From assembly GCF_903893715.1 (NCBI RefSeq), contig NZ_CAITNG010000153.1, forward strand, positions 21,632-85,631: DNA of 64,000 nt. Reading direction: 5' to 3'. Origin of the DNA: an uncultured Mucilaginibacter sp. (GTDB lineage Bacteria; Bacteroidota; Bacteroidia; Sphingobacteriales; Sphingobacteriaceae). Below the pieces are notes generated by a model. The model made no database searches. It was not told the DNA's origin and saw only the letters and a list, made by a program, of their open reading frames with translations. Shown here in pieces: positions 51,362 through 53,266 of this stretch. Both the position numbers and the translations under genes were made by a program. Every line of letters begins with the position of its first letter. The stretch's first letter is position 1.

Positions 51362-51383
51362 AGAGGGGACTATTGTCCCCTCT
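51362..51383 (-). terminator. Rho-independent terminator between the ATPase module and rimP
   Basis: Stem AGAGGGGAC/GTCCCCTCT, loop TATT; minus-strand T-rich tail. Confidence 0.75.
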
Positions 51384-51440: not shown

Positions 51441-51468
51441 TTTCGGATTTCGGATGTTCGATTTCGGA
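51441..51468. repeat. Heptamer-phased intergenic repeat (TTTCGGA TTTCGGA TGTTCGA TTTCGGA)
   Basis: Four in-phase 7-bp units, read directly. Confidence 0.8.
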
Positions 51469-51473
51469 TTAGG

Positions 51474-51899
51474 TTATTTAGTCATTGGCCAAAATTTATG
51501 ATCTTTATCTAAGAAAACGATATAAAATGTGTCGTCTTCAATATAGCCAACTACAACTTCTTTACTTTTTGAAGTTATATGCATCACAGTCCAATCGACC
51601 GAACTTATGTGTTTCGGCTGTGTAAATTCTGAGTCTGGTGGAAAACTAACTTTAGTGTAGGGTTTTAAATATTGTTTTTGTATAGCTTCCTGACAGGAAA
51701 ATTGCCCCACAAACTGTAATCGCTCATTCATATCTGATAATAAGCCTAATTCTTCCCATTCTTGTAAAGTTTGTCCTTCTGTATTTACAATAAGTTGAAT
51801 AAGGCTAAATGTAATTTTTCTAACCTTTTTAGTTTGAGCCTCTCTATTACCCTGCTCGCGTAAGTACGCTGGGTCTTTTCTTTCCTTTTTAGGAGGCAT
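51474..51899 (-). CDS. Small protein of unknown function paired with AAA ATPase
   Basis: 141 aa intact ORF overlapping the end of the ATPase gene; C-terminal WTVMHITSKSKEVVVGYIEDDTFYIVFLDKDHKFWP. Confidence 0.75.
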   Translation of the reverse strand: MPPKKERKDPAYLREQGNREAQTKKVRKITFSLIQLIVNTEGQTLQEWEELGLLSDMNERLQFVGQFSCQEAIQKQYLKPYTKVSFPPDSEFTQPKHISSVDWTVMHITSKSKEVVVGYIEDDTFYIVFLDKDHKFWPMTK

Positions 51900-53100
51900 A
51901 AAGCAAGTCAGTTAATTTCGAATTTATGTCTAAGGTCTCGGCTGCCCCAAAAGTATTCTCAAGATATTTTTTATCATACGCGGATGAATTTCGGACGGCG
52001 CTCGATTTAAATTCAGCTAAGGAATAAAGTGAAGAAGCGCCAAACTGATCTTTTTCTACGAACCATATCTGGTCCCGTCGTAATATCTTCTTGTCCAGTA
52101 AGTTTGTATCTTGTCCTGAAAAAATGAATTGTGCTTTCAAAAAGTTAAATTCTTGAAAAAAGCACATTAATTTTTTTGTGAGATTCGGATGTAATTTACT
52201 ATCAAGTTCATCTATAAATAAAATACCACCCCTTCTTAAAGTATCATATATTGGACCGAGAATGTGAATCAATTTTACTGTTCCAGCCGATTCCATTTTT
52301 GATTGAAATGGAATTGCTTCAATTAACAAACCATTTTCATCATACTTGTTATGATAAGTTATTATTTCGCCGTCCTTTTCACCTGCTTCTATATTTGAAA
52401 TTTCCAAATATTTTAAAACGTTAGCCGCCCATTTTTGAAAATTTAAATCAGACCTCAATAATTTTGTCGTAAAATCTTTGTGAAATAGTTCATGAAGCCC
52501 GCTAATTACGTTAAAATTATAAAACCAAAATATGATTTTTTTAGAAACTTTTTGGTTGTATTGAGCTAAATGACTTAAGAAAAGCACATTTGAATTAACT
52601 TCATCTTTGTACTTTTCGCCTTCGCCAAACGATTCTTTATTAACGATAAAATTTTGGCCATCACGTGTAAAAAGAGCTATTTCCCTGTCAAGCTTACGGT
52701 ATAACCATTCCTTTTTAATTTCATATTTGTATATTTCAAAACCGTAACGGTATATAATTCCTTCTTGTAAAAAGGAAACCTCAAACATTGTGTTATTTTT
52801 TTCAGAACTTGAGTTTAATCGATATCCAAAATCGTTATTTGGTTTTTCTTCATCCTTTTTTAGAGAATCGCTAAATGAGTTTGAAATAATTCCATTCATA
52901 ACAACTGCGGCTTGAATAAAGTTACTTTTTCCACTACCATTTGAACCATAAATCGCTGCGCTTTTAAGCAGATCGAACTCCCGTCCAGTAGCTATAACAT
53001 TAGTTTTTAAATGCTCTTTAAAGGATTTTACCTTCGTCATTAAAAAACTAGTTTCATCCTTAAAGGACAAGAAATTTTTAAACTTAAATTCTATTAGCAT
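51889..53100 (-). CDS. AAA15/AAA_21-type ATPase (SMC/ABC-like, AbiLi/RloA-like architecture)
   Basis: MLIEFKFKNFLSFKDETSFLM; Walker A AAIYGSNGSGKSNFIQA; Walker B GGILFIDELDSKLHPNLTKKLM; QFIFSGQDTNLLD. Confidence 0.9.
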   Translation of the reverse strand: MLIEFKFKNFLSFKDETSFLMTKVKSFKEHLKTNVIATGREFDLLKSAAIYGSNGSGKSNFIQAAVVMNGIISNSFSDSLKKDEEKPNNDFGYRLNSSSEKNNTMFEVSFLQEGIIYRYGFEIYKYEIKKEWLYRKLDREIALFTRDGQNFIVNKESFGEGEKYKDEVNSNVLFLSHLAQYNQKVSKKIIFWFYNFNVISGLHELFHKDFTTKLLRSDLNFQKWAANVLKYLEISNIEAGEKDGEIITYHNKYDENGLLIEAIPFQSKMESAGTVKLIHILGPIYDTLRRGGILFIDELDSKLHPNLTKKLMCFFQEFNFLKAQFIFSGQDTNLLDKKILRRDQIWFVEKDQFGASSLYSLAEFKSSAVRNSSAYDKKYLENTFGAAETLDINSKLTDLLYAS

Positions 53101-53235
53101 TATTAAATTATTTATACAAAGATAACGATGTTAATTAAGATAATTGTATATTTTTGGTAAAAAATGCGAATAAGTAAGCGGTTGACGTTTTGCAACTAAG
53201 CAGAGCTGTTCAGTCAGTGATTCACACCCCCACCC

Positions 53236-53255
53236 CATTTGCACATCCGCACATT
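53236..53255 (-). repeat. Dispersed repeat copy B (same family)
   Basis: Reverse complement AATGTGCGGATGTGCAAATG identical to 27115-27134. Confidence 0.85.
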
Positions 53256-53266
53256 CCTACCCATCT

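Follow-up and report, generated by a model that had tools for sequence, protein, structure and literature searches.

An accessory two-gene insertion next to rimP

The window, a 64,000-nucleotide stretch of Mucilaginibacter DNA, contains two contiguous genes that code for an ABC-type ATPase and for a protein of 141 amino acids, and the question raised by this locus is what such a pair does among housekeeping genes. A sequence-only reading had taken it for an uncharacterised two-gene defence or toxin-like system. Its description of two overlapping reading frames was correct: both lie on the minus strand and share 11 bp (Table 1), an arrangement that suggests a translationally coupled operon of the ATPase and the small gene. 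A TAnnTTTG-type box upstream of the ATPase gene is a candidate for the operon's own promoter. The flanking genes were also as had been described, with rimP-nusA-infB on one side and a D-2-hydroxyacid-dehydrogenase-like gene on the other, so that the surroundings of the pair in the Mucilaginibacter window are housekeeping genes and not a defence island. The AT-richness noticed beforehand was borne out by the composition of positions 52001-53000, whose GC content (31.2%) is the lowest among the 64 one-kb windows of the stretch.

Table 1. Location of the gene pair and associated features in the window
Feature	Positions	Strand	Evidence
AAA_21/AbiLi-type ABC ATPase of 403 amino acids, proposed antitoxin and sensor	51889..53100	-	Pfam AAA_21, 5.5e-31; PADLOC AbiLi, 1.2e-78, and AriA, 3.9e-29; Walker A, Walker B and S-x-GT invariant in 10 homologues
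Predicted RelE/YoeB-fold toxin of 141 amino acids (AarT-like)	51474..51899	-	AlphaFold pLDDT 80.9; top Foldseek matches in the PDB all of the RelE/ParE superfamily, likewise for a divergent homologue; upstream partner either an ATPase or Panacea
Overlap of the ATPase and small-gene reading frames, 11 bp	51889..51899	-	Positions of the reading frames; equal 11-bp overlap in L010
TATCTTTG, TAnnTTTG-type Bacteroidota promoter -7 box (candidate), 17 nt upstream of the ATPase start	53117..53124	-	Sequence; rimP preceded by the same type of box in 29 of 29 congeners
Inserted segment (approximate), by comparison with empty or alternative sites of congeners	51443..53260		Empty site in L033; end of the match with L031

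Comparison with other members of the genus revealed that the site can be empty. In the genome G007 (locus L033), rimP, a gap of 137 bp, the dehydrogenase gene and greA follow in succession with no insertion; in the closest congener at rimP (locus L031) the sequence is common with the window up to approximately position 51442 and then diverges. The inserted segment was delimited on the basis of these two sites. The small gene was not found in the 36 other genomes of the genus that formed the first sample. The pair is an accessory insertion, mobile at the rimP-dehydrogenase site, and not a core operon, which settles a point on which the defence reading had been made to depend.

The same reading had placed a terminator between the pair and rimP. 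A terminator-like hairpin does exist there (positions 51362-51383, minus strand), downstream of a rimP promoter-like box, but its role as a separator did not hold. In 29 of 29 congeners (loci L031-L059), including those without the module, the rimP start is preceded by a TAnnTTTG box, a GAGGGG-type hairpin and a T-run, in this order. Since the hairpin is kept even where the module is absent, it belongs to the rimP leader and was ruled out as a terminator of the module. An Rfam search returned nothing of note in the region, the leader element itself being absent from Rfam. This conserved intrinsic-terminator-like leader of rimP-nusA-infB is possibly an attenuator sensing NusA or RimP.

The upstream gene codes for an AbiLi-type ATPase

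The Walker A (GSNGSGKSN) and Walker B (ILFIDELDSKLHP) motifs reported previously for the ATPase are intact, as is an S-x-G-T signature (ESAGT), and these elements are conserved in ten homologues. The protein had been named an AAA15 ATPase. Its best Pfam match is AAA_21, and AAA_15 stays under its cut-off, so the assignment to this group of ATPases stands with AAA_21 as the better label. Among the PADLOC models the closest was AbiLi, followed by AriA, and the AbiLi model was also matched by all 10 homologous ATPases. Matches to azurin obtained with phmmer in the PDB were composition-like and were dismissed, and a scan of viral contigs with the window ATPase returned no relatives. At the H-loop position (codons near 52120) the window ATPase has Gln (SGQD), as do the ATPases of the enterobacterial plasmids described below; most relatives have His. 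This substitution may affect ATP hydrolysis.

The downstream gene codes for a predicted RelE-like toxin

No Pfam family was found for the 141-amino-acid protein, and searches of Pfam, NCBIfam and PDB sequences gave no family profile or sequence match to RelE, YoeB, YafQ or HigB; it matches an unannotated phage family, phrog_8366 (2.3e-6). Its predicted structure was also compared. AlphaFold models were obtained for the window protein (13 sequences) and for a homologue paired with a Panacea protein (pLDDT 74.8), and both showed the b-a-a-b-b-b layout of RelE-type proteins. In Foldseek searches of the PDB, ranks 1-29 for the window protein and ranks 1-37 for the Panacea-paired homologue were all occupied by chains of the RelE/YoeB/YafQ/HigB/ParE families, with Cami1, a RelE-domain CRISPR effector, at rank 30 of the former search. 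The best match was YoeB (E 0.024, probability 0.92), and neither model gave a PDB match with E < 0.001; TM-scores were approximately 0.26-0.40 when normalised to the query, reaching 0.61 for YoeB by target length. A fold search of BFVD gave no usable match. Single scores are weak, and the case for the fold is built on the consistency of the matches from two divergent sequences and on the agreement in the order of the elements. On these models the small protein is most likely a RelE/YoeB-like toxin, RelE-like by fold while falling outside the named Pfam families. Weak matches to the PADLOC models Cas6_IIIa (1.1e-3) and NsnC (8e-3), to PilW_C in Pfam and, with the toxin profile as query, to conglutin and others were judged to be chance or distant.

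Both ends of the protein had attracted attention beforehand, the N-terminus as very basic and the C-terminus as conserved in appearance, and both traits are real. The basic N-terminus is variable among family members and forms the poorly modelled tail of the window protein, and the conserved part of the family is the C-terminal motif FLDKDHKFW. Alignment of 23 predicted toxins revealed that Y81, P87, P95, W103, G118, F125 and F129 are invariant (23/23), that residue 107 is always basic (H in 14, R in 5 and K in 4), and that D131 and H134 occur in all 22 sequences that reach those positions. In YafQ, YoeB and HigB a histidine ends the last strand (H87, H83 and H92, respectively). H134 recalls this histidine, and the basic residue 107, D131 and H134 were accordingly selected as candidate active-site residues, which may be catalytic.

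Homologues of the small gene pair with an ATPase or with Panacea

Homologues were searched using the small protein or its family profile as queries, and never the ATPase. They were detected in other Bacteroidota genomes, in spirochaetes, in a conjugative Shewanella plasmid, in a Bacteroides phage, in ten IMG/VR contigs plus one more, and in small plasmids of Acinetobacter, Escherichia, Salmonella, Klebsiella, Enterobacter and Citrobacter. The gene directly upstream was then scored at the loci with an intact or nearly intact toxin gene and enough flanking sequence, which were 37. It coded for an AbiLi/AriA-type AAA_21 ATPase in 24 of them (the window, L002-L004, L010, L012-L014, L017, L024-L026, L061, L062, L076-L080, L088-L091 and L093) and for a Panacea antitoxin in 12 (L011, L016, L018-L023, L067, L075, L083 and L084); no locus had both, and the remaining one (L082, a weak, divergent but intact match) had neither. 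The ratio 24:12 is one of loci and should not be read as giving numbers of independent events, as the enterobacterial plasmid loci L013, L014 and L062 are close kin and the copies at L090 and L093 are damaged or incomplete. Excluded from it were the fragmentary L081/L086, L085, L087 and L092, as well as L015, in which the toxin gene is split by an insertion sequence. Pfam named SocA_Panacea in 9 of 9 upstream proteins scanned (1e-19 to 3e-25) and AAA_21 in 9 of 9 partner ATPases scanned besides that of the window. The presence of one or the other partner at 36 of the 37 loci bears out the proposal of a two-gene, toxin-like module.

The two partner types are not scattered over the family. In the tree of the toxins, sequences with the same type of partner cluster strongly, and their distribution calls for one or two switches of partner; a single switch is compatible with the tree as an alternative to two. 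Within 13 ATPase-paired loci, pairwise distances between toxins and between ATPases were correlated (r 0.90, Mantel p 0.0005), as expected of long-standing partners.

The genetic contexts of the homologues are diverse. In E. coli the pair was found in 14 of 5,426 genomes, always on plasmids of 4.7-9.3 kb and never in the chromosome, and small plasmids of Klebsiella and Enterobacter commonly carry it. Plasmids of 4.7-6 kb from Escherichia, Klebsiella, Enterobacter and Salmonella (including L014 and L062, the latter of ColRNAI type) have it as their main cargo, and the annotation of its two genes there goes no further than "ATP-binding protein" and "hypothetical protein". On one Klebsiella plasmid (L015, NZ_CP055177.1, 1754-3413) the IS3-family element ISKpn34 splits the toxin gene and leaves the ATPase gene intact, as would be expected if the toxin is costly. 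On the Shewanella baltica plasmid pSBP2_mcr4 (L061, 798-7890) the pair lies between site-specific integrases and adjoins an Ec67-type retron, a segment that looks like a small mobile defence cassette. Copies in P2-like prophages on viral contigs (L024, L025 and L026) form a divergent branch with a toxin of approximately 165-172 amino acids containing an inserted loop; they are located beside the portal gene, that of L025 being downstream of gene A. At L067 (1-4780), a Panacea-toxin pair is located between an integrase-like gene and an apparent large N6-adenine methyltransferase or restriction-type gene. The distant toxin relatives at L082, L083 and L084 are MAG6450-like, one of them with CHPIDW and GRIVGYF..LLDPEH motifs and two of them paired with Panacea, and suggest a much larger toxin superfamily.

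Proposed function of the pair

The Panacea domain has been established by experiment as an antitoxin, one that binds many unrelated toxins directly and thereby neutralises them (PMC8832971). Since the ATPase holds the exact position of Panacea, we assign the role of toxin to the small protein and that of antitoxin to the ATPase, and we are fairly confident that the two genes form a toxin-antitoxin module in which the ATPase neutralises the toxin, of the type described as AarT:AAA in Acinetobacter guerrae (Ernits et al., 2023; PMC10440598). The downstream gene would then provide a RelE/YoeB-fold endoribonuclease able to stop translation, probably by cutting mRNA on the ribosome, a ribosome dependence that is presumed here, and the upstream gene an AbiLi/AriA-type ABC ATPase that would bind and restrain this toxin in uninfected cells. 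Sensing of an invader by the ATPase would free the toxin, and so would loss of the operon, after which the ATPase would decay or no longer assemble; the resulting translation stop would lead to abortive infection or to maintenance of the plasmid or island.

The role of the module can be read in two ways. The pair may be dedicated to abortive infection against phages, the ATPase serving as a PARIS-like scaffold that would let go of the RelE-like effector on recognising a phage protein, and we give this reading somewhat better than even chances, since the ATPase matches the AbiLi and AriA models and the P2-like prophage copies occupy the segment between gene A and the portal gene. This segment of P2 holds old/tin-type defence genes. 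In the PARIS system, the AriB nuclease is caged by AriA until the binding of a phage protein sets it free (PMC12409363), and a sequester-and-release mechanism with a phage trigger is proposed here by analogy. Against an anti-phage function, the region of the window is a housekeeping one, and in the sole member tested, the A. guerrae pair, none of the BASEL coliphages was restricted in E. coli (PMC10440598). This negative screen fits better with a module that would serve mainly for addiction, keeping plasmids, prophages and islands stable and not being dedicated to the sensing of phages, in which the ATPase would be a plain antitoxin whose ATP cycle keeps the complex assembled; the confinement of the E. 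coli copies to small plasmids and their frequency on small Klebsiella and Enterobacter plasmids would be explained as well. We regard this second reading as possible but rather unlikely, as the pair is also present at single chromosomal sites and in prophages, the Shewanella plasmid copy adjoins a retron, and the large ATPase is of the sensor type of PARIS, AbiL and Septu.

Two further readings would alter the roles of the proteins. The name of Pfam AAA_21 mentions a "putative AbiEii toxin", and the small protein has a basic N-terminus, from which it could be argued that toxicity or effector function lies with an AbiEii-like ATPase and that the small protein is its antitoxin or a DNA-binding regulator. 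This is very improbable: the small protein pairs with Panacea antitoxins where the ATPase is absent, its predicted fold is that of RelE toxins, and in the A. guerrae pair it is the AAA protein that acts as antitoxin (PMC10440598). Even less credible is the idea that the pair is AbiL or RloAB in its classical form, the small protein being a TOPRIM/RloB partner that has diverged. AbiLi is indeed the PADLOC model closest to the ATPase, but the partner is too small, has a RelE-like predicted fold and gave no match to AbiLii, RloB, AriB (DUF4435) or TOPRIM models in Pfam, PADLOC and NCBIfam. Membership in AbiL, RloAB or PARIS was rejected on account of this partner of another type, in line with the sequence-only reading, which had recognised an AbiL/RloA-type ATPase with an effector other than RloB/TOPRIM.

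Among these readings, the ATPase-neutralised toxin-antitoxin module is the one we retain. A more specific version of it, which we put forward tentatively and at slightly less than even chances, is a PARIS-like immune system in which the AbiLi-class ATPase would be both the sensor of a phage protein and the cage for a ribosome-dependent mRNase, this toxin having moved between the sensor and Panacea. If true, it would give a direct view of a plain toxin-antitoxin pair turned into a triggered immune system. In the toxin family a simple antitoxin, Panacea, and an ATPase of sensor type replace each other in a clean partner swap, by which the passage from toxin-antitoxin pair to triggered immunity becomes testable, and the predicted fold and the candidate residues now provide targets for mutation. 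The range of a barely studied type of toxin-antitoxin system now also takes in chromosomes of Bacteroidota, spirochaetes, P2-like prophages and small plasmids that are common in Enterobacteriaceae.

Comparison with known systems

The AbiL system of Lactococcus (AbiLi/AbiLii) resembles the pair in being bicistronic and in its ATPase half, but AbiLii is TOPRIM/RloB-like whereas the window partner is a predicted RelE-like toxin. PARIS shares the same class of ABC ATPase and a small translation-blocking nuclease; AriB, however, is a TOPRIM tRNase. In PanA-PanT systems the antitoxin is a Panacea (PF13274) protein, and toxins homologous to the small protein have this kind of partner in phages, spirochaetes and Bacteroidales; the window copy has an AAA_21 ATPase in its place. 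The ptuXYZ operon (Gerdes, 2025; PMC11980606) also combines a defence-type ATPase with a YoeB-like BECR-fold toxin, but it consists of three genes, and the window pair lacks both its DUF262 nuclease and its fused PIN-like domain. The MAG6450 family (NCBIfam NF046006) gave a weak C-terminal match to the small protein (2.4e-5, 24.8 bits) and has a similar GxxxxxxxFxxxxLDxxH motif; as the match is below the curated cut-off of 40 bits and was obtained with only 2 of 13 members, this family would be a distant relative only.

The closest counterpart is AarT:AAA, and in view of it the pair cannot be called uncharacterised, since the same architecture has been validated as a toxin-antitoxin system. 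AarT is the toxin D3 of A. guerrae, paired with the AAA ATPase D29 (D3:D29) in the NetFlax network, which was seeded from Panacea; D29 is a domain of AriA, PtuA, GajA and AbiLi (Ernits et al., 2023; PMC10440598). Expression of A. guerrae AarT is toxic and blocks translation, the AAA partner neutralises it, and its authors speculated that AarT:AAA is an abortive-infection system (PMC10440598). A literature search with AarT as the name of a toxin found the original paper only. A. guerrae AarT has no HHpred match and an mRNA-interferase fold (PMC10440598), and the system studied here likewise combines a small toxin of no recognisable sequence family and with a predicted mRNA-interferase-type fold with an ATPase partner of AriA/AbiLi type. 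At 24 loci, that of the window included, the small toxin gene directly adjoins a D29-type ATPase gene, and the family also pairs with Panacea (12 loci) and has a member on an Acinetobacter plasmid (L012). The window copy differs in that it is inserted in a Bacteroidota chromosome and has 34% identity to the homologue on the Acinetobacter plasmid, and the fold is assigned here specifically to RelE/YoeB. Judged against the published description of A. guerrae AarT, the small-protein family is very likely the AarT family. The type of system was already described in 2023, and what is new here is the RelE-like fold, the candidate residues, the tally, over 37 loci, of the exchange between ATPase and Panacea, the mobile contexts, the hosts and the empty site.
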